In this document: positions 7,997 to 32,035 of the stretch, piece by piece
How the letters are laid out: every line of letters starts with the position of its first letter
Numbering within the stretch: the stretch's first letter is position 1
IMG/VR virus record: IMGVR_UViG_3300025324_000025
Coordinates: 1-32,035 of that record
Length of the DNA: 32,035 nucleotides
Reading direction: 5' to 3' (one strand)
DNA from: a virus
Translations under genes and position numbers: made by a program
Notes under the pieces: model-generated
Told to the model about the DNA's origin: nothing
The model's database searches: none
The model's input: only the letters and a program-made list of their open reading frames with translations

Positions 7997-9220
7997 TTAG
8001 CCAGAAGGCAACGCCGAAATTAAACGACACACGTACTGTGGATGGAAAACAAAACCGGTTAATAAATCTAACCGCATGTAGTTAACATAATTTAGGATGT
8101 CACCCACTTGCGTAATGGTGAGGGAGAGTCCCGTGTTCGGATCCACTGCTGTACCAACCATTGGCACTTGTAATTTATACAAGGGAGGACACACGATATC
8201 TAACCCCCGCATAGGGTAGGCCAAATTCACCGCATGATTTCCATAGGTGGTGACTGTGGCTCCGTTAGGAACGGCATTACTTACATTTCTTTGGGGGTTA
8301 GTGGAATCAGAAATAATAGCCGGGCTAACTTGAATAGTAATCGCACTACCCGAAGAATTTGCGGGCGCAGTAATCACGAACTGCATATTACTACCCGTGG
8401 ATTTCTTAGTAATATTATTTACGCTTTGCACTCCGGAAATTGAAATAATATCTCCTGGCAAAAAGTAATTTGCCACCGGTGAAGTAGCACCACTCAACAC
8501 AATAGTACTACCAGACCCCACTGCACCATTCACTAAAAGAGTATCGCCGCTGTGTGAAACAGGCCCTACCCCAGCATAGTGGGCTGCAATTTGTTGAGAT
8601 TGAAATGCATCAAAATAAGAAATGTGTCCGATAGCAGAATTTCTAACAATTTTTTCGTTAAAAACAGGTGTGAAGTTAGTTTGCACCCCTTGCTTTAACA
8701 GACTGGCATCATTAATACTCAAAGCCACATAAGCATCTTTTGATAAATTGACACCCTGGGATAAAAGTTTTGCACCAGCCAGATCGACGGCCCCAAACGA
8801 GTTAATAGCCGATGAAGCACTCCCGGTGAAGATATAAGATTGCAATTCTGCAGCCAAAGCCAAGTCAGTTTCTAATTGACCAATGATATTTTGAACAGCG
8901 GGCTGAATAAATTCTTGGTTGAAATCTTCAATTCTCAACTCCAGATCGGCAATCGTGTACTCAATCAAAGTATGGTATTGATGCGCGACCGTTAGATTTT
9001 CTACCGTTTGAACGATACCTTGTGGCACTGCGGTTGGCCCGTCGCCCACAATGTACTGGTTCCTTCTACGTAATTGAATAGTGTCACCAACTTTGTAGCC
9101 ACTGCTCGTGAAATCTTTTTGATACATCCGAGAGCCAGTAACAATAAATGGGCAATTGATAGAAAATTCAGCCAAAGCAAGGTTCGCTACTAACTGCGTG
9201 GTAATAAAATTATTTTGCAT
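7997..9220 (-). CDS. Major capsid protein, P22 coat (gp5)-like
   Basis: This encodes 407 residues, close to the 430 of P22 coat protein. The start MQNNFITTQLVANLALAEF matches the 'M.NNFLTTQ.VA..AL..L' opening of P22-type coat proteins. The following 'GYKVGDTIQLRRRNQYIVGD' and the 'HTLIEYTIADLELRIEDF' block fit the HK97-fold N-arm and P-domain of that family. The central section (about 230-310) is Ser/Thr/Val-rich and may be the family's inserted domain. ATG 9220 is chosen because AGGAG lies 9 nt upstream; an ATG at 9226 lies only 3 nt from it. It forms the capsid shell with the scaffold encoded upstream. Confidence 0.85.
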   Translation of the reverse strand: MQNNFITTQLVANLALAEFSINCPFIVTGSRMYQKDFTSSGYKVGDTIQLRRRNQYIVGDGPTAVPQGIVQTVENLTVAHQYHTLIEYTIADLELRIEDFNQEFIQPAVQNIIGQLETDLALAAELQSYIFTGSASSAINSFGAVDLAGAKLLSQGVNLSKDAYVALSINDASLLKQGVQTNFTPVFNEKIVRNSAIGHISYFDAFQSQQIAAHYAGVGPVSHSGDTLLVNGAVGSGSTIVLSGATSPVANYFLPGDIISISGVQSVNNITKKSTGSNMQFVITAPANSSGSAITIQVSPAIISDSTNPQRNVSNAVPNGATVTTYGNHAVNLAYPMRGLDIVCPPLYKLQVPMVGTAVDPNTGLSLTITQVGDILNYVNYMRLDLLTGFVFHPQYVCRLISALPSG

Positions 9221-9284
9221 TCTCATTCACTCCTAAAGGCTAGAAGTGGGTAGAGAACCAATCTCTTTTTTATTCCACAACCAG

Positions 9285-10094
9285 CTATCGTTGATTAAAT
9301 TTTCCTGCGCGCATCAAATTAATGATGTCCTCCACAGGAGTGTTTTCATTTACGATAGTGGGATTTGGTGCAGGCATGTTCCTAGCCGTGCCTAAGGGAG
9401 AGGGCTTTGCCGAGGCAGCCGCTTTCTTTCCCAACCCAGCCACTAACGCATGAGATAGCTTCGCCATCTCCATTCGTTGGTTTATAGGGTGGAGTTTAGA
9501 AATTCGTGCCAGCTCCTCAGGATTTTTACCTAGGTGGTACAGTACTTCACCGGCTGAACCTGCGCCTTGTTCCGGAAGAGTCAAGGCATAATCTGCCATG
9601 GCTTGACTAATGGGGACATTTTCACCGCGTACTACATCGTCAAAATCGTCGTACTTAGTAGAAAAATCATCCAAATACTTCCCAAACTTACTGCGTAGGT
9701 TGGCTACATGAGCATTACTCATGTCCGTTAGCTTCTGCTTTTCCTGCACTTCACGTTGCTGGAGAGCATAAGTCACTGCCTTCTGAATAGTACTGTCCTG
9801 CGCTTCGACAGCTGGGTCCACAGGGGCTGACCCTTGAGGTGACGAGACTTTTTGGAGTTCAAATTGCGTCATAGCAAGTTGTTCTTGAAGAGCAGCAATT
9901 TCTCTAGCATGTTTTCTTTTTTCCGCGGTTAAGCGTTTTTGAACTGCTAGCGATTCGTCTCCACTATGGGAAGGTTTCCCATCATTGGGCTTCGAATCTG
10001 ATTTTGCTTGGTCTTCTTGAGGCTCTCCTACAGTTTTCATCACTTCATTCGGATTGATATCCAATCCGAGATTTTCTGTCTCAGTGGCTGACAT
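9285..10094 (-). CDS. Scaffolding protein
   Basis: This encodes 269 residues from ATG 10094 (GGAG about 11 nt upstream). The N-terminus is acidic and disordered. Residues about 55-90 form a charged coiled coil (KRLTAEKRKHAREIAALQEQ), followed by another helical section and a short C-terminal helix (DIINLMRAGKFNQR). P22 scaffold (303 residues) is similarly helical, with a basic C-terminal helix-loop-helix that binds coat protein. Position directly between portal and coat genes is the P22 order. Function: directs procapsid assembly and is then released. Confidence 0.8.
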   Translation of the reverse strand: MSATETENLGLDINPNEVMKTVGEPQEDQAKSDSKPNDGKPSHSGDESLAVQKRLTAEKRKHAREIAALQEQLAMTQFELQKVSSPQGSAPVDPAVEAQDSTIQKAVTYALQQREVQEKQKLTDMSNAHVANLRSKFGKYLDDFSTKYDDFDDVVRGENVPISQAMADYALTLPEQGAGSAGEVLYHLGKNPEELARISKLHPINQRMEMAKLSHALVAGLGKKAAASAKPSPLGTARNMPAPNPTIVNENTPVEDIINLMRAGKFNQR

Positions 10095-10244
10095 ATTTTT
10101 CTTACTCCGGCATGCTTCTGCCCGCACTTTACGCGTTTGCGTTCGCCCGTGAATATTAGGCGCTCACGTTCGCCCCGCTTAATAAGCGTATTGAAATTAT
10201 AAACCTTTGAAACATTCGGCAGGTATACTACCCGTAGCATTTAG
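10095..10244 (-). promoter_or_regulatory. 150-bp gap upstream of scaffold gene with possible -10 box and repeats
   Basis: This is the only sizeable non-coding gap inside the late operon. On the minus strand it has TATAAT (10201-10196) without a convincing -35 box. Next comes a small hairpin CGCTT-ATT-AAGCG and two direct copies of CGTTCGCCC (plus strand 10140-10148 and 10167-10175). It could hold an internal promoter or a leader that raises scaffold and coat expression. No protein-coding frame here has a ribosome site. Confidence 0.3.
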
Positions 10245-12413
10245 CTACGTTTCTTGTTGATCATTTTTAGAATTATGCTTATGAAGATCTATCATTCTTT
10301 CCTGATGCTTATTGCGATCATTAATCATTAATTCCGTGAGTTCCTTTTGGAATCTAGATTTGTCCAAATCAGATTTGTCCCCTTCCGTCTGCATTTTTTG
10401 CAATAATGCAATCGTTTCATTTTGTAGCCGTTGTTCGTCGAGGTCATGCTGCTTTTTTTGATTATTAAGTTGTTGGGCTCTCAACATGAGGTCTTGCTGT
10501 TTATTGCGCAGTTCCATTTGTTGCATTTGTTGCTCTGGCGACGGAGGAGGGGGCGGAGCTGGAGGTTCCCCTTTTTCTTTTGCCAAAATATTGGGGGGAA
10601 CTAAGGTTTTAAGTCTTTCCACCATTTGTGGCATAAATTGTATATCCAAATTCATCGCCCACAGATCAGCAATTAAAGGGAAGACTTGAGGGGCCATTGA
10701 AACCGTTTGCTGAAAGAAGTCTAATGCAACATCTTTTTGAACGGCATAACTAGGGCCTGCACTAATTTCAATTTCAAATTCGCCGCGTGTTAAAGTATTT
10801 AAAACTGAACCATCTTTTTGTTTTTTATTAAAAGTGACTCTTTCGGTTTGGCCGTCCAATTTAGAAAGATTCATAAAGTGCTCGTTGTCCCCTATTACAT
10901 AAGGAAGTAGGTCATTAACGATGCGCCCACCTTGAGCAATCGCTTGGTTTAAATTGTCAAAAAATAAATAGGTCGCCAATCCGCCAGATAATTTTCTTTC
11001 GCGTTGTGCGCCTTGGCTGGCATTCTTTGCCATCATTACTTCTTGTTCACTGAATCCCAGAATCTGTTTAATGTCTTCTCCCAATTTAATAGCGTTTTGC
11101 ATTAGTTGAGGTGACATATCCCAGGGGGGCATTTTCTGTGGCATCTGGCCCGTTTTAGGATCCGGCACGGCTTTTAAAATACCATGCTGTAATTCAGGAT
11201 TTCGCCAAAGTTGTTCTTGTCCTTTAATATTGGCCGGGGTGCCTAGCCATTGCTCTCTGCGCCTATTTTTAATTTCTGTGATGATTTCAGAATTTACATA
11301 ATTCAGCGCGCGTTGGGGGTCTCTGGCATCGGCAATAAAAGATTTTGTGTATTGGTAACCTTGTAAATAATAACTATCGCCGTCCACAAAAATTATTCCT
11401 AATTGTCTGGATGGCCACTCACTCCAAGAAATAACTTGATCTTTAATCATTTGATAAACACGAATTTTATAATCTTTAGTTTTACGACGAGCTCGAATAT
11501 AAGGAAAATTTGCAGTAATTATTTTCTCTACGACGGAACCAGTTACAATAGATTCTTGTTGATGATGCACCTTTTGTGCTTCTTCCCATTCTGATTCGGT
11601 GACTACCTGGCCATCTGAGAGTTCTAAAATTGTTAACGGGAACCAGTGCTTTCTATACTCTTTATAAACCGTAATAGTTTTTTTGTTCACCCATTGATAA
11701 TTTCCCGTTAATGTGGAAGGAGTAAAAGATACAGGATTTTGAATGTCGGGGTGAGCCGCATAAAATTGAGTGAGGGGCATATCGTAACTCACTCCAGAAT
11801 AATCTCCATCCCCTTTATGAGGCATAATGGCACTTAAATCCCACACTGCTCTGGTGGGATCAGTAATAAGATTATAAAAGGGAAAATATTTAAAACTATA
11901 CGGGCTTGCATAATCCAACCCTACTTCAAATGCTCCCCACCCAATGAAAAAGGCAGATTTAAATGCATGTTGATAAATAAGATCCGTTTGATTGGTGTAG
12001 GCAATCGTTCGCAATAAATCTTGGCGTAAATTAATTTCCTCTTGCGTGGCTTTTCCATCGAGTGATCTTACCATTAAATCTGCTCTATTCTTTCTTTGCT
12101 CCCCCAATGCTTTCTTCAATGGTTCGGATAATTTATTAAAAGTCAGTGGGGTTTTTCCCAACCGCTGGAACTCAGATCGTTCGCCGTCACTCCATTGGGC
12201 TTTTACGGCAAAAGTAATATCGGAGAGCCCACGCGTAATATTTTCTTGAAAGCCACCTGTAAAAATATTCACGTGTTCGCGGGCTGTATCTAAGATATGC
12301 AGCTGATCGATTCCAGCTTCCCTCATAGCAGCTAGACGCTCATCTTGCAAATCTGCAATTTTTTTCTCAGGTAATCTTTCGATCTCTTGAGTGTCGGGAG
12401 TTTCATTAATCAT
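10245..12413 (-). CDS. Portal protein, P22 gp1-like
   Basis: This encodes 722 residues against 725 for P22 gp1. The N-terminal 'QWSDGERSEFQRLGKTPLTF', 'NKLSEPLKKALGEQRKNRAD' and later 'FIGWGAFEVGLDYASPYSFK' are the hallmark regions of the P22 portal family. The protein forms the dodecameric DNA gate at one capsid vertex. The last ~110 residues are a Gln/Lys-rich coiled coil after a Pro stretch (PPAPPPPPSPEQQMQQME), matching the helical barrel at the C-terminus of P22 portal. The ATG at 12413 has GAGG 5-8 nt upstream. It follows a Tad2-like gene with a 2-nt gap and precedes the scaffold gene. Confidence 0.9.
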   Translation of the reverse strand: MINETPDTQEIERLPEKKIADLQDERLAAMREAGIDQLHILDTAREHVNIFTGGFQENITRGLSDITFAVKAQWSDGERSEFQRLGKTPLTFNKLSEPLKKALGEQRKNRADLMVRSLDGKATQEEINLRQDLLRTIAYTNQTDLIYQHAFKSAFFIGWGAFEVGLDYASPYSFKYFPFYNLITDPTRAVWDLSAIMPHKGDGDYSGVSYDMPLTQFYAAHPDIQNPVSFTPSTLTGNYQWVNKKTITVYKEYRKHWFPLTILELSDGQVVTESEWEEAQKVHHQQESIVTGSVVEKIITANFPYIRARRKTKDYKIRVYQMIKDQVISWSEWPSRQLGIIFVDGDSYYLQGYQYTKSFIADARDPQRALNYVNSEIITEIKNRRREQWLGTPANIKGQEQLWRNPELQHGILKAVPDPKTGQMPQKMPPWDMSPQLMQNAIKLGEDIKQILGFSEQEVMMAKNASQGAQRERKLSGGLATYLFFDNLNQAIAQGGRIVNDLLPYVIGDNEHFMNLSKLDGQTERVTFNKKQKDGSVLNTLTRGEFEIEISAGPSYAVQKDVALDFFQQTVSMAPQVFPLIADLWAMNLDIQFMPQMVERLKTLVPPNILAKEKGEPPAPPPPPSPEQQMQQMELRNKQQDLMLRAQQLNNQKKQHDLDEQRLQNETIALLQKMQTEGDKSDLDKSRFQKELTELMINDRNKHQERMIDLHKHNSKNDQQET

Positions 12414-12415
12414 TT

Positions 12416-12679
12416 TTACCTCTCGCTCCCACTATGTGGGATTACCATTTCAGTTTGGAATATTTCCCAGTCGTCGCTTTCTAAATCTTCTACCTCTGGG
12501 ATCCACGGAGTCATCGGAGAATTTTCCGAAATTGAAACCATTATTACTACCTTAATGCCAGGCATTTTACAGATATAATTTATAGTTCGTGCATCAAAAA
12601 GCCCCTCACTAGAAATCCATTTTTGTCTCGTAATTCCCTTCACTTCTGAAAGTTTTTTAAAAGCTTCGTAAAATTTCAT
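12416..12679 (-). CDS. Tad2/DUF2829-like protein (possible Thoeris anti-defence)
   Basis: This encodes 87 residues. The start MKFYEAFKKLSEVKGITRQKW matches the 'MNFxEAxxxLxxGKxVxRxxW' opening of DUF2829, and the end has W59-x-P61-x(3)-D65-L-x(2)-D69-D-W71-E, matching the family's 'W.PS..D(ML)...DWE' ending. Members named Tad2 bind the signalling molecule made by the Thoeris defence system and so block it; many family members are untested. ATG 12679 overlaps the terminase stop (ATGA) with GAGG upstream; an in-frame GTG at 12688 is less likely. The insertion between terminase and portal means late-operon expression. Family match is strong from pattern; function is inferred. Confidence 0.65.
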   Translation of the reverse strand: MKFYEAFKKLSEVKGITRQKWISSEGLFDARTINYICKMPGIKVVIMVSISENSPMTPWIPEVEDLESDDWEIFQTEMVIPHSGSER

Positions 12680-14262
12680 ATTTCCCACCTCATGACTGGA
12701 TTAAATGTACTGACTTCTTCGGACGACTCAAATTTTTCTGCTGTAACGCGAGAGGATGCAAATTGCAATAGACCATATTGCAGTGCATCGTGGATATGAG
12801 AGAAATCATTTTTGTTTGGAACTTCCTGGTAACGCTCATCCCCACTCCGACTTATTCGTTTGTAATGATAACCGTTCAGAAATCCTTTGCGCAGTACGGG
12901 ACAGTTCTCCCGCGCCAATTGAAATGCCGGGGCGCCATCGATCATCGTATTTAAAAAATAACGCACAGCACCAATTCTTGCGGCCACCTCATTAGTATCG
13001 GCTGCTTGGGTGGTTATTCCAAGCGAATTTAGTTCTCCGATGCAACTTAGTTCCTCGTATATATCGTCGCGACTAGCCCCGCTAGGATCAGCCCACGAGC
13101 CTTCTACTTGCATGTGAGGAAAATGTAATGCCAATCCAGGCATCACCATATTTTTAGCAAAGGTGCGTATTCCCATGTCCTGCGTAGTGAATTCTCTTAT
13201 TATTAGTATTTTTCCTCTCGAAGAAATTTGAAAAACAATACACGCTGGAGTCAATCCAAAATCCCACCCTAAGTGCAAGGGCAATTCTAAAGCTGCCTGA
13301 ATGCTCGGAACAGAATGCAAATCATCATTATATTCTGGGTACACTCTTTTTCCAGATTCAACCATTCCGTATTTTCCAGAGCAAAATACTTTAATGAAGC
13401 CCTCTGATCTCTTTTCAGCTAACTTGGGGTAGTAGTCGGGACTTAAGTTTTCAAAATTATCCGCTGCTGGATTAGCCTGATAATTCCCCCATTTATCTTT
13501 TGCATAAGACCCATCGTCATTTAAGAGAAGCCCAGATGGCTGGTGAAAAATTTTATAGTTTGGAGTTGGATTTAATTCAAAATCTTTATAAATCCAATGA
13601 TCTTCATCGGGAGGGTTTGTATCACAAATAATCCCGCTCCAATAGGGAACATTACAAAAATTCTTGGATGGATAACGCCCATTCACACGGCCAATTAAAT
13701 GATGTAATACCACTTGAGGTACTTCTGAAATTTCATTTATGTAGGCTCCTGTAGCTTCTAGCGATTTCAACTTACGCACGTCTTCCGGTCGATCCAATGC
13801 AATAAAAACTAGCTCTAGCTCTATTACTCCTTTCCCGTCATTAAAAATATGCTCATAGGTGAGCAATGGTTTCTGACGCTTTTTTATTACTCCTAATTCT
13901 CCAAACCAGGTTAACCACGTTTGCAGAGTCGTAGATTGCAACTCACCGCTAGTGTTGCGAATAATTACCCATTTTGCTTTGCGTCTTCCATTGCTCCAAG
14001 GCGGCATGCGACAAGCCTGCTCAACAATTTTATGAATGCAGGCTGTAGATTTTCCTGAGCCATACGGCCCCATAATGAGCTGCACAAAGGTAGTATCTTC
14101 AGAAAATTTTTTCGCTGTGGGGTTAGGATAATACGTGCGCTTAGGATGGCCAAAAATAATAGTGGAGTCTTCTTCAAATTGAATATGCAATGAATCTTGG
14201 CGAGCATGATCTGTTTTAAGTTGACTAACTTCACGCCTAATATTTTCTAAGGAGGGGATCAT
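12676..14262 (-). CDS. terL: Terminase large subunit
   Basis: This encodes 528 residues (P22 gp2 has 499). It is the ATP-driven packaging motor and headful nuclease. Walker A is GPYGSGKST at residues 65-73. The hydrophobic strand with acidic end 'ATGAYINEISEV' (171-181) is the Walker B region. RNase H-like nuclease acidic residues are in 'HLGWDFGLTPACIVF' (D334), 'WADPSG' (D392) and 'SHIHDALQYG' (D492). It acts at the portal vertex with the small subunit encoded 130 nt upstream. It starts at ATG 14262 (AAGGAGG upstream), overlapping the zinc-ribbon gene by 26 nt, and ends in an ATGA overlap with the Tad2-like gene. Confidence 0.92.
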   Translation of the reverse strand: MIPSLENIRREVSQLKTDHARQDSLHIQFEEDSTIIFGHPKRTYYPNPTAKKFSEDTTFVQLIMGPYGSGKSTACIHKIVEQACRMPPWSNGRRKAKWVIIRNTSGELQSTTLQTWLTWFGELGVIKKRQKPLLTYEHIFNDGKGVIELELVFIALDRPEDVRKLKSLEATGAYINEISEVPQVVLHHLIGRVNGRYPSKNFCNVPYWSGIICDTNPPDEDHWIYKDFELNPTPNYKIFHQPSGLLLNDDGSYAKDKWGNYQANPAADNFENLSPDYYPKLAEKRSEGFIKVFCSGKYGMVESGKRVYPEYNDDLHSVPSIQAALELPLHLGWDFGLTPACIVFQISSRGKILIIREFTTQDMGIRTFAKNMVMPGLALHFPHMQVEGSWADPSGASRDDIYEELSCIGELNSLGITTQAADTNEVAARIGAVRYFLNTMIDGAPAFQLARENCPVLRKGFLNGYHYKRISRSGDERYQEVPNKNDFSHIHDALQYGLLQFASSRVTAEKFESSEEVSTFNPVMRWEI

Positions 14263-14413
14263 GTTCCGACCTTTCTGTGGATTTTTTTTCGTAGGTGGAA
14301 TAGCGCGTCAAGCAATGTAAACATTTTCGACGTCGTTTAATTTCGTCTCGATTCTCAATATAGCGGGTGCCTAATACAGCCGAGTCCGGCCAATTACACT
14401 TTGGGCATAACAT
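14237..14413 (-). CDS. NrdR-type zinc-ribbon mini-protein
   Basis: This encodes 58 residues from ATG 14413 (AGGAAAGG site upstream). The first 40 residues read MLCPKCNWPDSAVLGTRYIE, then 'RDEIKRRRKCLHCLTRYSTYE'. This is the C-x2-C...TR..E....I.RRR.C..C..R(F/Y).TyE signature of the zinc ribbon that begins NrdR, the repressor of ribonucleotide reductase genes. The ATP-cone that makes up the rest of NrdR is absent. It overlaps the 3' end of the terminase small-subunit gene by 20 nt and the start of the large-subunit gene by 26 nt, so it is embedded in the packaging operon. It may be a DNA-binding or packaging cofactor; regulation of host nrd genes is only a possibility. Confidence 0.7.
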   Translation of the reverse strand: MLCPKCNWPDSAVLGTRYIENRDEIKRRRKCLHCLTRYSTYEKKSTERSEHDPLLRKY

Positions 14414-14894
14414 CGTCTCGTCCTTTCCTCTTAGAGGCCGTGGATGGCTTGGATGACGAGTCCGATGGAATATAATAATTTTCTTCTTTCTGTTCACGCA
14501 GTTGCGTTTTTAATTCTTCTATCTCTTCTGCTAACTCCATATTTTCTGCTTTGGATGAAAAATATTTCCAGAATTTTCTTTCTAAATACCATTGCGCTCC
14601 GTGCGCGCCAGGTAAATCATTTTCAATTTTATGAAGTCGAGAAATAATATGCTCTCTAAAAATAGTAGCCAACGACTTAACTAAGCGAGAATGCATGCTG
14701 TCTACATTATGATGCAAATCCAATCTGCCTTGGCGTAATATCACTTTAAATCTGTCGTAAGACATGCCGGCGCATTCCGCTGCAATCGCATGGGGGATTC
14801 CCTCTTGAATGTAACCAGCAATTTCCTTTAACGTTTTTTCCGTGAAAATTGTAGTATGACCAGGCGCTTTATTTAATTTTGGAATGGACGGCAT
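14394..14894 (-). CDS. terS: Terminase small subunit
   Basis: This encodes 166 residues (P22 gp3 has 162). The N-terminal region contains a helix-turn-helix-like stretch: 'IAGYIQEGIPHAIAAECAGM' followed by SYDRFKVILRQGR, typical of small terminase subunits that recognise the packaging site. A long charged coiled coil follows (about residues 115-145) and the tail is basic and Ser-rich. GAGGAAA precedes ATG 14894. It is the first packaging gene, just after a small membrane-protein gene. No other function fits the position. Confidence 0.8.
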   Translation of the reverse strand: MPSIPKLNKAPGHTTIFTEKTLKEIAGYIQEGIPHAIAAECAGMSYDRFKVILRQGRLDLHHNVDSMHSRLVKSLATIFREHIISRLHKIENDLPGAHGAQWYLERKFWKYFSSKAENMELAEEIEELKTQLREQKEENYYIPSDSSSKPSTASKRKGRDDVMPKV

Positions 14895-20460: not shown

Positions 20461-20697
20461 ATGTTAGTGTTGACTAGATCAGTGGGCGACCGGATTTTTA
20501 TTAATAACGGATTGATAAAAATTCAAATAGTAAGGGTGAATGGTAATCAGGTACACGTTGGAGTAGATGCCCCTAAAGAATTCTCAATTTTAAGAGAGGA
20601 AGTTTTCCACCGGTATACTCGAGATAATTCCTTCCCTCCGGGAAAGCCTTCTTCACATAACACCCCAATTGAATCAATAATTTTTGTAACGGAGTAA
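20461..20697 (+). CDS. csrA: CsrA-family RNA-binding regulator
   Basis: This encodes 78 residues; host CsrA is about 61. MLVLTRSVGDRIFINNGLIK and 'GNQVHVGVDAPKEFSILREE' follow the family closely, with the RNA-contacting L4, R6 and R45 (equal to E. coli R44) in place. The last ~22 residues (NSFPPGKPSSHNTPIESIIF) are an extra tail. CsrA dimers bind GGA motifs in mRNA leaders and block or stabilise translation. The ribosome site here is AAGGAGAA, itself a GGA motif, so self-control is possible. Phage copies may reprogram host metabolism or motility; this is inference. Confidence 0.88.
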   Translation: MLVLTRSVGDRIFINNGLIKIQIVRVNGNQVHVGVDAPKEFSILREEVFHRYTRDNSFPPGKPSSHNTPIESIIFVTE

Positions 20698-21015: not shown

Positions 21016-21231
21016 ATGAATAAAAAAATAGGTATGAAAAATTTATCGAGCTTTCATAAAGATTATAAAAATTTAAATTTTATGGAGGAATTACGAGCAG
21101 ACTACGAAAAGGAAAATGCCGATTACCATAAATTTGATAAAAAATTATTGTTACAAACCGCAGGGGCAATTTTAGCACTCAATTTTGCTACCGAGGGTGT
21201 AGTAAATTACATTTTACCTTGGATCAAATAA
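21016..21231 (+). CDS. Small protein with C-terminal hydrophobic segment
   Basis: This encodes 71 residues. The first half is charged (MNKKIGMKNLSSFHKDYKNL). Residues 46-69 (LQTAGAILALNFATEGVVNY then ILPW) are hydrophobic and could insert in a membrane. GGAT lies 7 nt before the ATG. Its stop directly abuts the first repeat-protein gene. Function unknown. Confidence 0.5.
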   Translation: MNKKIGMKNLSSFHKDYKNLNFMEELRADYEKENADYHKFDKKLLLQTAGAILALNFATEGVVNYILPWIK

Positions 21232-21435
21232 ATGAAACCGATCATCAATAAGATACGGAATAATGTAGCGGATGCGCTAGTGGATGAGTTAGTGCATAAG
21301 GCGTTGGATAAAGTATTGGCTGAGGTCTCAGGTGAGATATGGACCCCAGTATGGCATCAAGTAGCGGAGCCAGTACTCCAGGAAGTACGGGATCAAATAA
21401 TGAGTGAAAGGATTGTATCAAGTAAAGGAAAATAA
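21232..21435 (+). CDS. Tetrapeptide-repeat small protein (copy 1)
   Basis: This encodes 67 residues: MKPIINKIRNNVADALVDEL, then 'HKALDKVLAEVSGEIWTPVW'. A valine or isoleucine tends to recur every fourth residue (x-x-[KEQ]-[VI]). The regular phase is clearest in the C-terminal half (VWHQVAEPVLQEVRDQI). It is the most diverged of the first four copies and lacks the shared MKNKVG start. It begins right after the preceding stop with no strong ribosome site, so coupling is likely. Function unknown. Confidence 0.6.
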   Translation: MKPIINKIRNNVADALVDELVHKALDKVLAEVSGEIWTPVWHQVAEPVLQEVRDQIMSERIVSSKGK

Positions 21436-21657
21436 ATGAAAAATAAAGTTGGTGAAAGGGTAACAATCAAGATTCGAATGCAAGTACAGGGAAAAGTAGG
21501 GAAGCAAGTACGGACTAAAGTAGAGCAGCAAGTATGGAACGAAGTATCTGATAAAGTAGCGGACGAAATGCCAGGGCAAGTAAAGAATGCAATATGGCAT
21601 AAAATATTTCAGCAGATAGTATGGAATAAAATATCTCATAATTTGGTAAAACAATAA
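21436..21657 (+). CDS. Tetrapeptide-repeat small protein (copy 2)
   Basis: This encodes 73 residues, starting MKNKVGERVTIKIRMQVQGK. From residue 16 on it is a string of x-x-[KQE]-V units (QGKVGKQVRTKVEQQVWNEV). At DNA level the units are 12 nt with GTA or ATA as the V/I codon after AAA, CAA or GAA. The end 'IWHKIFQQIVWNKI' is nearly repeated in copy 3. AGGA upstream of the ATG is the ribosome site. The lack of other conserved features suggests the repeat itself is the functional part. Confidence 0.65.
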   Translation: MKNKVGERVTIKIRMQVQGKVGKQVRTKVEQQVWNEVSDKVADEMPGQVKNAIWHKIFQQIVWNKISHNLVKQ

Positions 21658-21673
21658 CCTTTAAAAGAAATAA

Positions 21674-21877
21674 ATGAAAAATAAAGTTGGTGAAATAGTA
21701 AGGAAAAAGTTACGTATTCAAATACACGAGGAAGGATGTGAGGAAGTATGTGAGGAAATAAACCACGAAGTATGGGAGGAAGTACACTCGGGAATAACCA
21801 ATCAAGTACCGGACGAAGTATGGCATAAAATATTTCAGGAGATAGTATGGAAAATAACCTTTCAAGGAAATAAATGA
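21674..21877 (+). CDS. Tetrapeptide-repeat small protein (copy 3)
   Basis: This encodes 67 residues. The start MKNKVGEIVRKKLRIQIHEE repeats that of copy 2, and the 15-20 nt before the two ATGs are also alike, so the start was duplicated together with its leader. The body 'CEEVCEEINHEVWEEVHSGI' keeps V/I at every fourth residue. It ends WHKIFQEIVWKITFQGNK. It overlaps the start of copy 4 by 4 nt (ATGA). Confidence 0.65.
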   Translation: MKNKVGEIVRKKLRIQIHEEGCEEVCEEINHEVWEEVHSGITNQVPDEVWHKIFQEIVWKITFQGNK

Positions 21878-22068
21878 AAAATAAAGTTGGGGAAATAGTA
21901 GAAATCAAGCTTTGGTCGGGAGTAGGGTGGCGAGTAGGGATGCAAATAGGGGGCAAAGTAGGGGGCAAAGTATTGAACGAAGTAAGGGAGGAAGTACGGG
22001 AGAAAATAGGGAATGAAGTAAGGTGGAAAGTAGGACGGCAACTATGTCATATCTTAACGAAAAAATAA
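21874..22068 (+). CDS. Tetrapeptide-repeat small protein (copy 4)
   Basis: This encodes 64 residues, starting MKNKVGEIVEIKLWSGVGWR. It contains ten consecutive unbroken x-x-[KQE]-[VI] units (21922-22041), for example 'GGKVGGKVLNEVREEVREKI'. If helical, a four-residue period gives a hydrophobic stripe drifting about 40 degrees per unit, which would favour a right-handed coiled coil (inference). It precedes the Sak4-like gene by 13 nt. Confidence 0.65.
   Translation: MKNKVGEIVEIKLWSGVGWRVGMQIGGKVGGKVLNEVREEVREKIGNEVRWKVGRQLCHILTKK
21922..22041 (+). repeat. Ten tandem 12-nt units, consensus rTAnGGnnnvAA
   Basis: Reading from 21922, ten units fit without insertion or deletion. The fixed part is AA followed by GTA or ATA at every junction; the middle bases vary with a bias to G. 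The units are coding (copy 4). The same unit recurs in arrays near 21490-21600, 23470-23580, 24994-25232 and 26090-26450. Confidence 0.75.
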
Positions 22069-22081
22069 TGGAGAGTAAATC

Positions 22082-22768
22082 GTGGGAAAATTAGTATATA
22101 TTATAGGAGAAAGTGGCTCTGGAAAAAGCACTTCCATTCGTACTTTAAATCCGCAAGAGACCTATATAATCAATATTTGTAATAAAGACCTCCCTTTTCC
22201 AGGTTCAGCGAGCATGTATCAAGAAAAATCTGAGAACAATCCTGGAAATTTATTTTTTTCGAATGAATATCGAATAGTTGGTAAATTAGTGGACGCAATT
22301 AGCGAAAGAAGACCAGAAATAAAAACTTTAATTATTGATGATTTTGGATATCTTATTACTCATCAAATTTTTGCGAGCGCTACTGATAAAGGATACGACC
22401 GCTTTACTCTTATTGCTAAATGTCTTCATGAATTTTTGGAAAAACTTCAAATGACTAGACAGGATTTGTATATATTTTTAATGTGGCATACAGATCAAGA
22501 AGAAAACAAAGTAAAATTAAAATCTTTTGGAAAAATGATTGATAGCCATTCCAAGCCAGAAGGGATGCCTGCTATTATTTTGCATACCCAAATTGTTGAT
22601 GGAAAATTTAAATTTTTAACCCAAAATGACGGCGTTCATTTAGCGAAAAGCCCATTAACTATGTTTGAAGATACTTTGATAGATAATGATCTAAAAATAA
22701 TTATCGAGCGCATGAAACAATTTTATAATAAAACCATGACTAACCCGGAGACAGACAATGAAATTTGA
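22082..22768 (+). CDS. Sak4-like RecA-fold ATPase
   Basis: This encodes 228 residues from GTG 22082 (GGAG 9 nt upstream). Walker A is GESGSGKST at residues 9-17, and Walker B is in 'IKTLIIDDFGYLI' (around 80-90). The short N-terminus, the polar 'ETYIINICNKDLPF' after Walker A and the 'LYIFLMWHTDQEENKVKLKS' strand match phage AAA_24 / Sak4 proteins, which work as single-strand annealing recombinases. It overlaps the following SSB-like gene by 11 nt; the Sak4-SSB pairing is common in phages and supports the call. Confidence 0.75.
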   Translation: MGKLVYIIGESGSGKSTSIRTLNPQETYIINICNKDLPFPGSASMYQEKSENNPGNLFFSNEYRIVGKLVDAISERRPEIKTLIIDDFGYLITHQIFASATDKGYDRFTLIAKCLHEFLEKLQMTRQDLYIFLMWHTDQEENKVKLKSFGKMIDSHSKPEGMPAIILHTQIVDGKFKFLTQNDGVHLAKSPLTMFEDTLIDNDLKIIIERMKQFYNKTMTNPETDNEI

Positions 22769-23192
22769 TCCTAAATCAAAAAAAGAAATAGAAGATATGA
22801 TCTTGATCCCAGCTGGACAATATGTGATTAAAATAATAAAGGCTTTCGAAAGAAACAACTCTTATTCTGGCGAATCAGAAATTAATTTAACTATGAATAT
22901 TTTGAATGATAATTATACAAAACCTTTGTTTGATTCTTTATCTGGAAAGGGAACGAAAATAAAAAAACTTAGAAGTTTTTGTGAAGCTGCACATTTAATG
23001 GATTCTTACGATTCTCATCAATTAACACCTGAACAATGTGTGGGAAAAATTTTAAAAGCTAACGTAAAAAAAAGAGGAGAATGGACTAATCCGGCAGGTC
23101 AAACTATAGAGGCGACCAATTATATAGATTCTTACAGCTCCCATGAAAATATTTCACAAGAATCGATGAAAGAAGATGATTTACCATTTTAA
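22758..23192 (+). CDS. SSB-like protein (DUF669 type)
   Basis: This encodes 144 residues. 'ILIPAGQYVIKIIKAFERNN' and 'GESEINLTMNILNDNYTKPL' fit an OB-fold opening. 'KIKKLRSFCEAAHLMDSYDS' followed later by 'CVGKILKANVKKRGEW' resembles DUF669/phage single-strand-binding proteins. The acidic end EDDLPF is the classic SSB C-terminal tail that recruits partner enzymes. GGAG precedes ATG 22758. It partners the ATPase encoded just upstream. Role: coating single-stranded DNA during phage replication or annealing. Confidence 0.65.
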   Translation: MKFDPKSKKEIEDMILIPAGQYVIKIIKAFERNNSYSGESEINLTMNILNDNYTKPLFDSLSGKGTKIKKLRSFCEAAHLMDSYDSHQLTPEQCVGKILKANVKKRGEWTNPAGQTIEATNYIDSYSSHENISQESMKEDDLPF

Positions 23193-23220
23193 AAAATTAA
23201 ATTAAATGTGAGTAGTTGTT

Positions 23221-23436
23221 ATGCAGCTAGTATGGAATGAAAAATTAGCAATCAAGCTTCTGATACGAGTACGGGCGCGAGTATGGTGGCTAGTATGGGA
23301 TAAACTAGGGAAGAAATTACGGGGTCAAATAAGGGATGAAGAATGGATGCCAGGAGGGAACCAAATAAAGGAAGAAGTATGGAACAGAGTAAAGAACCAA
23401 GTATTTGAGAGGTTAAAAAAAATAAATGAAAAATAA
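23221..23436 (+). CDS. Tetrapeptide-repeat small protein (copy 5)
   Basis: This encodes 71 residues: MQLVWNEKLAIKLLIRVRAR, then 'VWWLVWDKLGKKLRGQIRDE'. It has the four-residue hydrophobic period, Trp-rich, and lacks the MKNKVG start. There is no convincing ribosome site (TTGTT before the ATG). The last 11 nt overlap copy 6. Located between the SSB-like and DUF6745 genes. Confidence 0.55.
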   Translation: MQLVWNEKLAIKLLIRVRARVWWLVWDKLGKKLRGQIRDEEWMPGGNQIKEEVWNRVKNQVFERLKKINEK

Positions 23437-23626
23437 GGTGGGGAGAGTAGTAATGAATCAACTAACCGGGGAAGTAGCAGGTAAAGTAGGTGTACTATGG
23501 GGGCAAATGAGGGGGCAAGTAGAGGAGAAAGTATGGGAGAAAATACAGGAGCAATTATGGAGCACAGTACCAGACCTAGTGATGCCCCTAGCTGAGCTAA
23601 TCAAACAAACTAAGGAGCTAAAATGA
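23426..23626 (+). CDS. Tetrapeptide-repeat small protein (copy 6)
   Basis: This encodes 66 residues. The start MKNKVGRVVMNQLTGEVAGK is the shared cassette start, followed by '[QE]-[VM]-x-x' units (GQMRGQVEEKVWEKIQEQLW). It ends PDLVMPLAELIKQTKELK. The stop overlaps the DUF6745 start in ATGA, so it is co-translated with a larger conserved gene. Confidence 0.6.
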   Translation: MKNKVGRVVMNQLTGEVAGKVGVLWGQMRGQVEEKVWEKIQEQLWSTVPDLVMPLAELIKQTKELK

Positions 23627-24531
23627 AAATAGAAAAATTAACTAAAGAGCAAACCGGCAAATTCCCATATTATGTAAAAAAATGGACAGATATCGGTTTA
23701 TCAACTGAGCCAGCAGATCGTCCACGTGCGGAAGCAGCCATTAAATGGATGTACGCGCAAGCCAAATTATCAGAACCAGAAATTATATGGACACGCTCGC
23801 CTTTTGAAAATTATTTAAAATTCAATAAATTAGTTGATAACACTGATCAAACTTTTGATCCATGGAGTTCAATTTTTGGATGCCACGATGCAAACTGGTT
23901 GGGTTTTTATGATTTTTTTCGTGAAGAGTGTGGTCTTGTAAAAGAAACTGATCCTCTTCATGGTCTTTTTGAATTATCGAAATCCTGTGGGTGGTGCTTA
24001 CCATGTGAACATATGTGTTTTATGTCAGATAGGCCATTAAAAATAAACAAAGATGCCGCGGGAAGACTGCACAGCACTACTGAAGCTGCGCTTGAATATA
24101 GAGACGGGTGGAAGTTGTACCAAATTCATGGGGTGACGGTGCCCGACTTTTTTATTACTGATCCCAAAAAAATAACTATCGATCTGATCGACAAAGAAAA
24201 TAACGTGGAAGTTAAAAGAATAATGATAGGATTATATAAATCTGGAATTCAGGATTACATTTTTGATAGTGGCGCAACATTAATTGATGAAAAAAAAGAT
24301 ATTCATTCTGGGTTGCCAATTAAATTATGGAAAAAAACACGTACAAATGATACGGATATTGTAATGGTAGAAATGTTAAATACTACAAAAGAACTAAATG
24401 ACGCCGGCCAATATATTCATAAACCTTATTATATTCGAGTAAAACCCGATATTACCAATGCGCTTGAAGCAGTGGCATGGCACCATAATCAATCTCTGGA
24501 AGAATATTTAGAAACTGAGGTGGGGACTTAA
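23623..24531 (+). CDS. DUF6745 protein, unknown function
   Basis: This encodes 302 residues. The order of motifs matches DUF6745 proteins. There is an N-terminal helical segment with 'PADRPRAEAAIKWMYAQAKL', then 'CFMSDRPLKINKDAAGRLHS' followed by TTEAALEYRDGWKLYQIHGVTVPDF (here residues 130-180). Then come 'EVKRIMIGLYKSGIQDYIFD' with SGATLIDE, and a C-terminal 'ALEAVAWHHNQSLEEYL'. The family is widespread in bacteria, some members carrying leucine-rich repeats; no activity is known to me. Cys residues at about 118-133 (SCGWCLPCEHMC) may bind metal. GGAG precedes ATG 23623. A HEEH protein, often its neighbour in bacteria (my recollection), is 0.9 kb downstream. Confidence 0.75.
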   Translation: MKIEKLTKEQTGKFPYYVKKWTDIGLSTEPADRPRAEAAIKWMYAQAKLSEPEIIWTRSPFENYLKFNKLVDNTDQTFDPWSSIFGCHDANWLGFYDFFREECGLVKETDPLHGLFELSKSCGWCLPCEHMCFMSDRPLKINKDAAGRLHSTTEAALEYRDGWKLYQIHGVTVPDFFITDPKKITIDLIDKENNVEVKRIMIGLYKSGIQDYIFDSGATLIDEKKDIHSGLPIKLWKKTRTNDTDIVMVEMLNTTKELNDAGQYIHKPYYIRVKPDITNALEAVAWHHNQSLEEYLETEVGT

Positions 24532-24551
24532 AAAATTAAAGGTAAAATTGT

Positions 24552-24965
24552 ATGATTTTTAGGAGTATTAAGAGGTGTCCAAGATGCAATAAAATTCCAA
24601 AAATTAGGTATGGTAAGATCGAGCCATCTCGCCTGTATGTTTGGTATTATATAAAATGCTGCTCCTTTGTAGAATATGGTTACACCAAAAAATCTTGCCA
24701 AGATATCTGGAGAATCAAAATAAAACACTATAAAGAAAAGAGGAAAAAAATGAAATTTGAAATATTAAATGAAAATATTAAACAAGAAAAACAAAAGGTT
24801 TTATTTAAGCTTTTCGAACTTTCTAATGCAAACATCCAATTATGTTTTAAAAAAAATAGTAACACAGAATGGGAGTCTCTTTTAACTATTAGCCAAGATG
24901 GATCTATTGAACTCCAAACGTCAGCCTTCAATCAAATTCTAGCTGATATTTATGAAAAAATGTGA
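24552..24965 (+). CDS. Lar-like zinc ribbon fused to a small C-terminal domain
   Basis: This encodes 137 residues. Residues 8-60 (RCPRCNKIPKIRYG, 'YVWYYIKCCSFVEYGYTKKS' then CQDIWRIKI) follow the C-x2-C...W...C..C....(S/T)..EAI..WN.R plan of Lar, the restriction-alleviation protein. Residues 67-137, starting MKFEILNENIKQEKQKVLFK, are a separate domain. ATG 24750 at that boundary has a strong AGAGGA ribosome site, so the second domain can be made alone. The two may be an old fusion or overlapping products. Role of the first part in blunting host restriction is by analogy only. Confidence 0.55.
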   Translation: MIFRSIKRCPRCNKIPKIRYGKIEPSRLYVWYYIKCCSFVEYGYTKKSCQDIWRIKIKHYKEKRKKMKFEILNENIKQEKQKVLFKLFELSNANIQLCFKKNSNTEWESLLTISQDGSIELQTSAFNQILADIYEKM

Positions 24966-25200
24966 AGCTAGGAGGAAAAATCGTTGGATGAAAGTAGGGG
25001 GTCAAGTATACGCGCAAATAGGGGTGGCAGTAGAGGAGAAATTATGGGGGGAAGTAAGGGATTCAGTATTTGAGAAATTATGGGATAAAGTAGGGTATCA
25101 AGTAGACGTGGAAGTACGGGAGAAAGTAGAGAAGGAAGTACGGGAGGAAGTATGGGATAAAGTAGGGGTGCAAGTATGGGATAAAATGTGGAACAAGTAG
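24952..25200 (+). CDS. Tetrapeptide-repeat small protein (copy 7)
   Basis: This encodes 82 residues, starting MKKCEARRKNRWMKVGGQVY. From residue 15 it is 16 unbroken x-x-[KEQ]-V units (24994-25185), for example 'REKVEKEVREEVWDKVGVQV', the longest array in the window. The array then has an 11-nt unit which breaks the frame, and copy 8 carries on in the new frame. The gene overlaps the end of the Lar-like gene by 14 nt. Confidence 0.6.
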   Translation: MKKCEARRKNRWMKVGGQVYAQIGVAVEEKLWGEVRDSVFEKLWDKVGYQVDVEVREKVEKEVREEVWDKVGVQVWDKMWNK

Positions 25201-25232
25201 GGGAGAAAGTAGTGGAACAACTAAGGGAGAAA
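24994..25232 (+). repeat. Longest 12-nt repeat array, with one 11-nt unit
   Basis: Sixteen 12-nt units run from 24994 to 25185, then an 11-nt unit (25186-25196), then three more 12-nt units from 25197. The single missing base shifts the frame between copies 7 and 8. The units share the AA-rTA junction seen elsewhere. Confidence 0.75.
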
Positions 25233-25460
25233 GTAGAGATAGGAATTAATATATCATCCAAAATACGGAATAAAATACGGCGGGAGGTAAAACAGCAAGT
25301 AGACAATAAAGTTTGGGATGAAGCATGGCGCCCAGTAGTGAAGCAAGTAAATGAGCGAGTATTTGATCAAGTACCGTTACGGTGGAGCGTAATGGACGAA
25401 ATTTATTCTAAATTAAAAACTAAAGCAGGAGAAGAAAATGCAAAAAGTAAAAGTAACTAA
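25188..25460 (+). CDS. Tetrapeptide-repeat small protein (copy 8, frame-shifted continuation)
   Basis: This encodes 90 residues from GTG 25188, starting MEQVGEKVVEQLREKVEIGI. The repeat units continue those of copy 7 with a one-base shift; adding one base would fuse the two into a 169-residue protein. After 'NISSKIRNKIRREVKQQVDN' the period weakens. Ribosome site is poor, so translation may depend on coupling to copy 7, or this could be a degraded 3' half. It overlaps the start of the HEEH gene by 23 nt. Confidence 0.5.
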   Translation: MEQVGEKVVEQLREKVEIGINISSKIRNKIRREVKQQVDNKVWDEAWRPVVKQVNERVFDQVPLRWSVMDEIYSKLKTKAGEENAKSKSN

Positions 25461-25776
25461 CCGAGGTCGTCAAGGGGATGTTTACTTAAAAAAAGTAAAA
25501 TTGCCAAAAGAAATTATCGTAAAAGAATTTCCCAATAATAAAATTATTTTAGCATTCGGAGAAAAAACTGGGCATCATCATAGATTTGAGACGGCCAATG
25601 TTAAAATGTTTGTTGCAAAAGATGGTAGCGGAAAAACTTATGTATTAATTACTGAATATTCAGCCGAATTAAAACATGAGGAGCATGATCCCGTTATATT
25701 TAATCCTGGTGCTTACGAGGTGTTAATTGCTCGACAATGGACTGATGCCGAAGAGCCCGTTAAGGTTGAGGATTAA
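25438..25776 (+). CDS. His-rich 'HEEH' protein, DUF6745-associated
   Basis: This encodes 112 residues. 'GRQGDVYLKKVKLPKEIIVK', 'LAFGEKTGHHHRFETANVKM' and 'AELKHEEHDPVIFNPGAYEV' followed by ARQW form a pattern I recall from small bacterial proteins (GDV...GE.TGHAH...L.HEEH.PI...G.Y.V..QRE) encoded beside DUF6745 genes. The conserved HHH and HEEH histidines suggest metal binding in a beta-sandwich. GGAG precedes ATG 25438. Here the DUF6745 gene lies upstream, separated by Lar-like and repeat genes. Function unknown. Confidence 0.6.
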   Translation: MQKVKVTNRGRQGDVYLKKVKLPKEIIVKEFPNNKIILAFGEKTGHHHRFETANVKMFVAKDGSGKTYVLITEYSAELKHEEHDPVIFNPGAYEVLIARQWTDAEEPVKVED

Positions 25777-25797
25777 TTAAAAAAATAGGAGAAAAAA

Positions 25798-25986
25798 ATG
25801 TGGTGGAATTTTCTTAAAAATACATGTACGCACCCTATTATAAAAAAAATAGATAAAAAAATTAGTCAACATACTTGTGATTGTTGCCATAAAGAGTTGT
25901 TTATTCAAGAGGAGATAAATTCTGAAGTGGTAGAAAATCCCAATAATTTTTATGAAAAGTATGCGCTGGAAGAGGTAAAAATTTAA
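25798..25986 (+). CDS. Small Cys/His protein, unknown function
   Basis: This encodes 62 residues with a possible zinc site in 'CTHPIIKKIDKKISQHTCDC' followed by CHKEL. The rest is acidic (IQEEINSEVVENPNNFYEKY). GGAG lies 6 nt before ATG 25798. It abuts copy 9 of the repeat family. Confidence 0.5.
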   Translation: MWWNFLKNTCTHPIIKKIDKKISQHTCDCCHKELFIQEEINSEVVENPNNFYEKYALEEVKI

Positions 25987-26280
25987 ATGTTTTCTAAAAT
26001 TAAATCTATGATGAAATGTCTTTTTTTGAGAGAAGACTTAAAAAATAGTCCTGGTGAAAAGCTAGCGGAAAAGCTAGGCGTGCAAGTCGGCAAACAAGCA
26101 AGGGCTCAACTATACGATCAAGTATTCTATCAAGAATTCAATCAAGTATTCGATCAAGTACACGATCAAATAACGGATCAAATACCATGGAGGGTACTTG
26201 TGAAAGAGCTGAGGGATCTCGAACTAATAAAATTATTAGAGTATAGGAGAAATAACCGGAGCAATCACGGAAGGAAATAA
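25987..26280 (+). CDS. Tetrapeptide-repeat small protein (copy 9)
   Basis: This encodes 97 residues. A unique N-terminus (MFSKIKSMMKCLFLREDLKN) is followed by repeats of a different flavour, (Y/F/D)-(D/Q)-Q-V/I: 'LYDQVFYQEFNQVFDQVHDQ' then ITDQI. Here the 12-nt unit is mostly GTA-n(4)-GATCAA. So the family's central two residues drift as a block within one gene. The tail is basic (YRRNNRSNHGRK). Confidence 0.6.
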   Translation: MFSKIKSMMKCLFLREDLKNSPGEKLAEKLGVQVGKQARAQLYDQVFYQEFNQVFDQVHDQITDQIPWRVLVKELRDLELIKLLEYRRNNRSNHGRK

Positions 26281-26296
26281 TAACCGAAGTAATTAA

Positions 26297-26512
26297 ATGA
26301 AAAATAAAGTTGGTAAAACCGTAGCATTCAAGCCTTGGTCGGAAGTAAGTTGGGGACTAGAGATGCAAGTAGGGGGCAAAGTAGAGATGCAAGTAAGGGG
26401 CAAAGTAGGGATGCAAGTATGGAACGAAGTGGATCAAATATTTGATCAAACACGGGATAGAGCAGTATGGTTCGCAATTATCACCGAGCTTCAGGGACTT
26501 ACTAAAAACTAA
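26297..26512 (+). CDS. Tetrapeptide-repeat small protein (copy 10)
   Basis: This encodes 71 residues, starting MKNKVGKTVAFKPWSEVSWG, the shared start. Then 'GGKVEMQVRGKVGMQVWNEV' units, with a 9-nt unit near 26430 that keeps the frame. It ends FAIITELQGLTKN, similar in feel to the end of copy 9 (VKELRDLELIKLLEY). The 5' leader retains repeat-like sequence (ACCGAAGTAATT). Confidence 0.6.
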   Translation: MKNKVGKTVAFKPWSEVSWGLEMQVGGKVEMQVRGKVGMQVWNEVDQIFDQTRDRAVWFAIITELQGLTKN

Positions 26513-30886: not shown

Positions 30887-31537
30887 CTATAGTTTCACAA
30901 ATAAATTCATAAATATAGTCGGCTGCATTAAAGATACTTTTTCAATTCCTGTCTGAACCGTCGTCAAAGTATCGTCGTTGTCAATAGATAGGCCGCCAGC
31001 CGCATCTACTACATTCCCACCACCAAGGGTATAATTGGTACCACTATTTTGAGTATGGAAATGATAAGGGGTGTCGGTGGTATAACTGCTACCTGTATAA
31101 ACCCCTAAAGCAGTCGTCAACATATGCGTACCACTACCTGCTGATAAAATTGGTACAAAATATCCAGCAATAGCATCAGTTAAATTATCACTCACCGTAA
31201 TGGTGGTAGTAGTTAAGCTGGTTGCCGTTACATAATAAATTGTATTGGCGGATAAACCTGTCGGTAACGCTCCTCCCGTATTATAAAATTGCACCGGAGT
31301 TCCTGCCGCCCAGACTGGCGATTGCGCGGTGGATAAAGTAATAACGTTGGTAGTATTAATAATTGTATTGGGCTGCGTACCTGCTACTGTCACTTCAAAT
31401 ACGGTAGGAATTAAAGCATCAGCTAATGTTAAAGCTAAATTAAAAGTAGATGCCCCTGTTGAAACCACATAGTAAGTAGTATTAGCGGTTAATAAATCAG
31501 TCACCCCATCTGGAAAAATCACCGTGGGCAATGTGCC
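30887..31537 (-). CDS. Tail collar/fibre protein, C-terminal part (continues at base 1)
   Basis: This is the last 216 residues and stop of the tail gene whose first 469 residues lie at 1407-1. Joining 31537 to 1 gives an unbroken frame reading ...APGVFTT-GTLPTVIFPDG..., about 685 residues in all. Two repeats of an '(L)PTGL.ANT.YYV.....TTF' motif occur (TANTTYYVVSTGASTFNLAL and SANTIYYVTA). The end 'TDTPYHFHTQNSGTNYTLGG' and 'QPTIFMNLFVKL' are the His-rich and terminal strands of tail-collar domains. The open frame extends upstream to 31993, but that part is antisense to a foreign BIG2 gene. Confidence 0.75.
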   Translation of the reverse strand, partial: GTLPTVIFPDGVTDLLTANTTYYVVSTGASTFNLALTLADALIPTVFEVTVAGTQPNTIINTTNVITLSTAQSPVWAAGTPVQFYNTGGALPTGLSANTIYYVTATSLTTTTITVSDNLTDAIAGYFVPILSAGSGTHMLTTALGVYTGSSYTTDTPYHFHTQNSGTNYTLGGGNVVDAAGGLSIDNDDTLTTVQTGIEKVSLMQPTIFMNLFVKL

Positions 31538-32035
31538 GGTGGCTTCGGTCGCCGTGGATCCCGGCGCCCCTTCGATCATTGTCGGCCAGACCGTCCAACT
31601 CAACGCCACTGCCCGCGATGGCTCGAACACAGTGCTCACCGACCGGACGGTGACCTGGAGCTCCAGCAATGCCGCTGCCGCATCGGTGAACGCATCGGGG
31701 CTGGTCACAGGAGTGGCGACCGGGAGTGCCACCATCACAGCCACAGTCGACGGGGTCTCAGGCAGCTCGACCGTCACGGTGAGCCAGGTGCCGATAGCGA
31801 CCATCACCGTGACGCCCGATCCCGCCAGCGTGGAAGAGAAGAAGACGCTGCAGCTCACTGCGACGGCGCGCGACGCCGGCAGCGCGGAGCTGACCGGGCG
31901 GACGATAGTCTGGGCGTCGAGCAATAACTCCATCGCCGCCGTCTCGCAGACCGGCCTGGTCACAGGTATCGCACCAGGATCCGCGACGATCACTGCCTCG
32001 TCGCCGGGTGGCGGCGCCGGTGGATCGTCGCCCAG
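31538..32035 (+). other. GC-rich bacterial BIG2-domain fragment, probable assembly chimera
   Basis: From about 31530 the composition jumps to strongly GC-rich with GC-ending codons. The plus strand has an unbroken frame from GTG 31533 to the window end (167 codons). It encodes two Ig-like BIG2 domains: 'IVGQTVQLNATARDGSNTVL' to 'GLVTGVATGSATITATVDG', then 'VEEKKTLQLTATARDAGSAE' to 'GLVTGIAPGSATITA'. These belong to bacterial surface proteins. No start or stop lies within the phage-free part. The fragment interrupts a phage gene whose halves join perfectly without it, so it is best read as a misassembly rather than an insertion. Confidence 0.75.

Follow-up and report, generated by a model that had tools for sequence, protein, structure and literature searches.

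Tad2 is a viral protein that soaks up a bacterial alarm molecule. Members of the proven anti-Thoeris type (SPO1, Hgm and Mod) are characterised as homotetramers whose ligand pockets lie at protomer boundaries, and by the binding of gcADPR, hisADPR or cyclic dinucleotides, which counters Thoeris or CBASS. Structures have been solved for several members of its domain family (PF11195, Tad2-like, formerly DUF2829), among them SPO1 Tad2 of a Bacillus phage (gp34.65; PDB 8SME, 8SMF and 8SMG), HgmTad2, which is the same protein as AcrIIA7 (8KBI to 8KBM), SptTad2 (8WJD) and ModTad2 from a Myroides odoratus prophage (8V3E and 9EIB), the last of which was solved with hisADPR. The pocket that binds gcADPR in Tad2 has been described in a review as consisting of the loops b1-b2, b3-b4 and b4-a3, strand b4 and helix a3, with alpha-2 forming part of the dimer interface (PMC12043709). 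With regard to genomic position, a described counterpart of the gene reported here is SKUL_8 of Pseudomonas phage Skulduggery, a DUF2829 fusion gene located between the large terminase and the presumed portal SKUL_10 (annotated as hypothetical), although it carries an extra N-terminal domain and a longer Tad2 form, and the phage is otherwise unrelated to ours.

The gene that we studied lies in a 32,035-base IMG/VR virus record, the whole of which was analysed and is hereafter referred to as the window. Packaging, head, ejection-type and lysozyme genes occupy its minus strand, and its plus strand encodes a RecE-like fragment, CsrA, a Sak4-like annealing protein, DUF669 and DUF6745; judging from this gene content, the minus strand is probably late and the plus strand early. 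The initial annotation had described an 87-residue Tad2-like protein, embedded between terminase and portal and translationally coupled to the former, and the ORF is confirmed. It comprises 87 codons for 87 amino acids (MKFYEAFKKLSEVKGITRQKWISSEGLFDARTINYICKMPGIKVVIMVSISENSPMTPWIPEVEDLESDDWEIFQTEMVIPHSGSER) on the minus strand (12679-12416), running from an ATG at 12679-12677 to a TAA at 12418-12416. Domain and profile matches verify both neighbours, namely the large terminase subunit, TerL, upstream (12676..14262, minus strand) and a P22-like portal protein downstream (10245..12413, minus strand). The TGA stop of TerL (12678-12676) shares bases with the Tad2-like ATG in a 4-nt ATGA overlap that can be read directly from the DNA (12676..12679, minus strand), and only 2 nt separate the TAA from the portal ATG (12413-12411), a tight packing that fits the proposed coupling. 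A Shine-Dalgarno-like AGGTGG stands 5 nt ahead of the ATG, and the corresponding GAGAGG of the portal gene is located within the 3' end of the Tad2-like gene. An alternative GTG lies 9 nt further upstream and would add three residues, but the better ribosome-binding site belongs to the ATG. A search for an internal promoter found no minus-strand promoter-like site between the end of TerL and the start of the portal gene, and promoter-like sites in the region showed no excess over the shuffled expectation. On the same strand, further downstream, follow a head scaffolding protein (9285..10127; phrog_8865, 5.5e-14) and a P22-type coat (major head) protein (7997..9226; PF11651, 8.8e-28). Upstream lies a candidate small terminase subunit (14394..14894, minus strand; phrog_4102, 3.4e-5), with an NrdR-type Zn-ribbon ORF (14237-14413, minus strand; PF22811, 1.3e-14) between the two terminase genes.

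The window protein is a member of the PF11195 domain family, as had been proposed under the older name DUF2829: the profile matches at E 6.1e-8 and 33.5 bits over its positions 1-72 of 73, that is, essentially its full length, and above the curated Pfam cut-off of 25 bits. On its own, the protein reaches PDB sequences at best with an E of about 0.7 (Tad2 chains, a weak match), and a profile of its relatives from the same junction retrieves Tad2 chains by sequence at 4.5e-11 to 1.5e-8. Its identity to these relatives is at most about 36%. Direct searches of IMG/VR with the window Tad2-like protein and with the window portal found no relatives, and the family was reached via a search with TerL. 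When long family members, SPO1 Tad2 among them, are aligned with it, R18, W21, W59, P61, D65, D70 and W71 are kept in the window protein, the last five making up a C-terminal W.P...D....DW motif; Arg18, Trp21, Trp59, Asp65, Asp70 and Trp71 correspond to residues of SPO1 Tad2 itself, and the same C-terminal motif is found in ModTad2. The WNG motif after b1, in contrast, is absent: W21 is kept, but N22-G23, invariant among the five long Tad2 members aligned, is replaced by I-S. Also absent, according to both the model and the alignment with SPO1 Tad2, is the alpha-2 segment of roughly 20 residues between b2 and b3, which ModTad2 likewise possesses. This shortened middle is common to the family found in the junction, whereas a longer loop after W21 occurs only in the window protein and a few other members.

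An AlphaFold2 model built with 30 family members in the alignment (pLDDT 85) consists of helix 3-9, strands 15-18, 33-38, 45-50 and 56-58, helix 63-67 and strand 71-74, and it has the Tad2 core fold (a1-b1-b2-b3-b4-a3-b5). VIA-align superposes it on SPO1 Tad2, SptTad2, ModTad2 and HgmTad2/AcrIIA7 with Z 9.2-10.1 and an rmsd of 1.6-1.9 over 64-66 residues, so that the predicted fold agrees with all of the solved Tad2 proteins considered, in support of the Tad2-like assignment of the initial annotation. The match to SPO1 Tad2 has a Z of about 10 over 64-65 residues, those to HgmTad2/AcrIIA7 and SptTad2 a Z of 9.2-9.7, and ModTad2 is the best Foldseek match. The AcrIIA7 structure 8KBI gives a Z of 9.6, with other Tad2 proteins equally close. 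HgmTad2/AcrIIA7 and SptTad2 share the N- and C-terminal motifs, yet their chains of 101-104 residues contain a long middle insertion, in place of which the window subfamily has a shorter middle. All non-Tad2 rows of the fold search have a Z below 5, and a match to a virion-neck protein (8qkh_S; rmsd 8.1) was set aside as unspecific. Since the loops, strand b4 and helix a3 named in the review (PMC12043709) are all seen in the model, the described pocket elements are present. The expectation of a Tad2 ligand pocket is thus borne out as far as its surrounding elements are concerned, but not for the alpha-2 segment or for the N-G after the conserved Trp, and the pocket-forming assembly of the modelled protein may differ from that of Tad2. 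The gene, packed on the late strand before the portal, scaffold and coat genes, encodes a protein with the Tad2 core fold that belongs to a short subfamily lacking alpha-2. Because its sequence has neither the alpha-2 segment nor the WNG motif, we would class the protein as Tad2-like rather than as a proven anti-Thoeris Tad2.

These losses bear on what the protein does. It might be a Tad2-fold protein that has moved away from sponging signals and now, as a small late product, targets a protein of the host or the phage without binding a nucleotide signal, for instance as an AcrIIA7-like CRISPR inhibitor or in host takeover. This is the main rival to a sponge, and a possibility that we entertain tentatively. 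The missing alpha-2 segment and WNG loop speak for it, as does the structural match to AcrIIA7, which has the same domain and has been described as a CRISPR inhibitor (PMC6739104). On the other hand, nucleotide ligands are present in structures of AcrIIA7 itself (PDB titles 8kbj and 8kbk), and the window protein retains the fold core and several of the conserved residues. Both losses, together with the low identity of the window protein to its slot relatives and its weak matches, on its own, to Tad2 chains, are counted against a sponge. Far less probable, to the point of being hardly credible, is that the gene is a decayed, non-functional Tad2 remnant, retained merely as a spacer for translational coupling. 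Such a remnant might have a shortened middle and low identity to proven members, as is observed, but the frame is open and has a ribosome-binding site, the domain match is full length, and dN/dS is low in close pairs of the family (see below). Moreover, since the relatives share the same architecture, the shortened middle is a stable form.

The relatives also show that the location of the gene, rightly described as lying between TerL and portal, is not peculiar to the window genome but is a recurrent cargo slot of its lineage. A TerL scan gave 80 relatives with 48-76% identity, 58 of which contain both TerL and portal with a complete junction (counts at the junction were tallied by hand). In these related podoviruses the junction holds a single-domain Tad2-like gene in 32 cases out of 58, only other cargo in 17, and in the remaining nine TerL and portal abut or nearly so; after clustering at 95% TerL identity (n=52), the counts are 27, 17 and 8, respectively. 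This recurrence, taken with the low dN/dS of close pairs (given below), makes the placement more than a chance one. The slot measures 0-5.2 kb, which in the larger Tad2-positive records amounts to some 8% of the genome, and it barely fits the Tad2-like gene in the window and in L003, L049/L050 and L076. Nearly all single-domain copies recovered by searches of whole records sit in it, the exceptions being L059, L093 (G031) and L094 (G052). Single recognised cases of other cargo include a cytosine methylase, an HNH endonuclease, DUF3310, DUF551 and an Acb2/Tad1-hairpin protein, and other recurrent families of the slot have no assigned function. One of these, whose motif is INFPGQN...PRIGHLY, was seen at 37 loci (e.g. 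L044:3221-3592).

It would be tempting to infer from the location that the protein is a virion-assembly or packaging accessory that works with the terminase or the portal protein, and the tight spacing in the window and the slow, TerL-like evolution of the gene in close pairs are in line with this idea. We nevertheless consider it unlikely. A packaging or virion component should always be present, and 26 of the 58 complete junctions are without a Tad2-like gene; nine of these have TerL and portal abutting and 17 more contain other cargo. Since this is so, the gene is accessory cargo and not part of packaging, and the virion-associated role that had been raised for it is made improbable by those relatives whose TerL and portal have nothing between them. 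The clear fold matches are furthermore all Tad2 proteins, the neck protein mentioned above being the sole row of its kind, and the pattern of sequence divergence suggests exchange, as described next.

In close pairs among the relatives, dN/dS of the Tad2-like gene is about 0.04-0.12 (a rough estimate, as dS is high), and within these pairs the gene is under purifying selection. Protein identities of Tad2-like and TerL in close pairs are 0.91/0.91 and 0.89/0.87, yet over all pairs the two identities correlate with a Spearman coefficient of only 0.30, and in some pairs the Tad2-like protein is more similar than TerL. This combination of low dN/dS and TerL-like identity in close pairs with a weak overall correlation and pairs exceeding TerL suggests that the gene is constrained yet also exchanged, which argues against a fixed partner of packaging. 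The strong conservation in close pairs, about that of TerL, is slow for a gene engaged in an arms race; it counts against a sponge and in favour of the non-sponge role introduced above. The opposite direction is indicated by one relative, in which an Acb2/Tad1-hairpin gene (L016:9968-10207; 80 aa; PF24729, 7.1e-14) lies directly upstream of the Tad2-like gene, with 13 nt between them, and, by its domain match, would represent a second sponge family in the same slot. Such a neighbour was seen in only one of the 50 records searched, and this rarity is again counted against the sponge.

For the family as a whole, a late position is not uncommon. Of 33 IMG/VR records that have a canonical DUF2829 gene and in which TerL was detected, 20 carry the two on the same strand and no more than 6 kb apart, compared with 9.3 out of 33 expected within that distance under uniform placement on either strand; because several of the 33 records are related, the comparison is only indicative. 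Cultured phages differ in this respect, as the DUF2829 gene lies shortly ahead of the major capsid gene in Vibrio phage 1.127.O, past the lysis genes in Acidovorax phage AP1, and next to regulators in Klebsiella phage SopranoGao. A separate observation is that the DUF2829 proteins of Pseudoalteromonas phage vB_Pun_Y3 (L100), Skulduggery (L102) and AP1 (L104) are fusions that all begin with the same additional domain, whose motif is GYLVEY.D....H....GYISWSP..VF...Y. In addition, a longer Tad2-like gene (about 130 aa) is present in the records of ten relatives; in the set examined (L083-L092 and L118), it resembles the window gene in its PF11195 match and differs from it in having two domains and lying on the strand opposite TerL (strands were compared by hand; one of the ten genes is cut by a contig end). 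A DUF669 homologue occurs in the neighbourhood of this two-domain gene in three records, and a Planctomycetota MAG contig contains both the single-domain and the two-domain form. No second, two-domain copy was found in the window. A model of the two-domain paralogue made without an alignment had a pLDDT of 40 and was left unused.

The initial annotation had regarded a late position as odd for an anti-defence gene, an objection that loses its force because Thoeris can respond to a late product. Previous studies have shown that the phage major head protein sets off Thoeris in both S. aureus and Streptococcus equinus (PMC12578639), and that the TIR protein SpbK responds to a phage portal protein (PMC11984713); given these triggers, late timing fits an anti-Thoeris role. 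We favour, with about an even chance of its being correct, a late-expressed sponge for a nucleotide signal that has a trimmed Tad2 fold. Besides the timing, this reading draws on the PF11195 match and the core fold, the retained conserved residues and pocket elements, the recurrence of the gene in the slot of the relatives, the Acb2/Tad1-hairpin neighbour and the purifying selection in close pairs. Under this reading, the Tad2-like gene, cargo in the accessory TerL-portal slot of a podovirus lineage, would be translated late, just ahead of or together with the capsid proteins. A capsid or portal component would set off the synthesis of an alarm signal by a host defence, the coat protein of the window (7997..9226) being the proposed trigger by comparison with other phages (PMC12578639). 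Because the Tad2-like gene immediately precedes the portal, scaffold and coat genes on one strand, the sponge would appear with the trigger. It would then bind a nucleotide-type signal, either of the ADP-ribose type (TIR/Thoeris) or a cyclic dinucleotide, and the sequestered signal would not switch on its effector before lysis. If this holds, counter-defence genes should be sought not only among early genes but also where the late packaging operon has small accessory slots, as there are defences that wait for capsid or portal proteins before firing, and the Tad2 fold would tolerate trimming to a smaller size. A bolder version, which we regard as doubtful, is that the lineage reserves its TerL-portal junction for late counter-defence and fills it with Tad2-type sponges lacking alpha-2, made in step with the capsid and portal proteins that trigger TIR-type defences, that some members rely on the early-strand two-domain paralogue at the start of infection, and that the signal bound by the minimal form may not be that of known Tad2 proteins.

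The best cultured TerL relatives, with about 33-39% identity, are phages of Pelagibacter, Methylophilales, Pseudoalteromonas, Cronobacter and Burkholderia, among others. TerL relatives were also found in MAG contigs labelled Thaumarchaeota, Planctomycetota, Riflebacteria and Parcubacteria. We rejected these labels as a clue to the host, since they span four unrelated phyla and probably reflect binning noise, and weak ThsB-TIR matches in two of these MAGs were likewise not counted as evidence for a Thoeris-bearing host.

Several features elsewhere in the window deserve mention. The CsrA homologue of the plus-strand region (20461-20697; PF02599, 1.1e-18) is followed by a series of short look-alike ORFs (MKNKVGE..., rich in V, K, W and E) amid the recombination genes at 21016-26512 on the plus strand, for example 21436-21657, 21674-21877, 21874-22068, 24952-25200 and 26297-26512, and this region coincides with a marked shift in GC skew. 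At the end of the contig, a V/T/A-rich, repeat-like ORF on the minus strand (30887-31993) has a GC content of 0.53, compared with about 0.40 elsewhere, and possibly represents repeats or a chimeric end.
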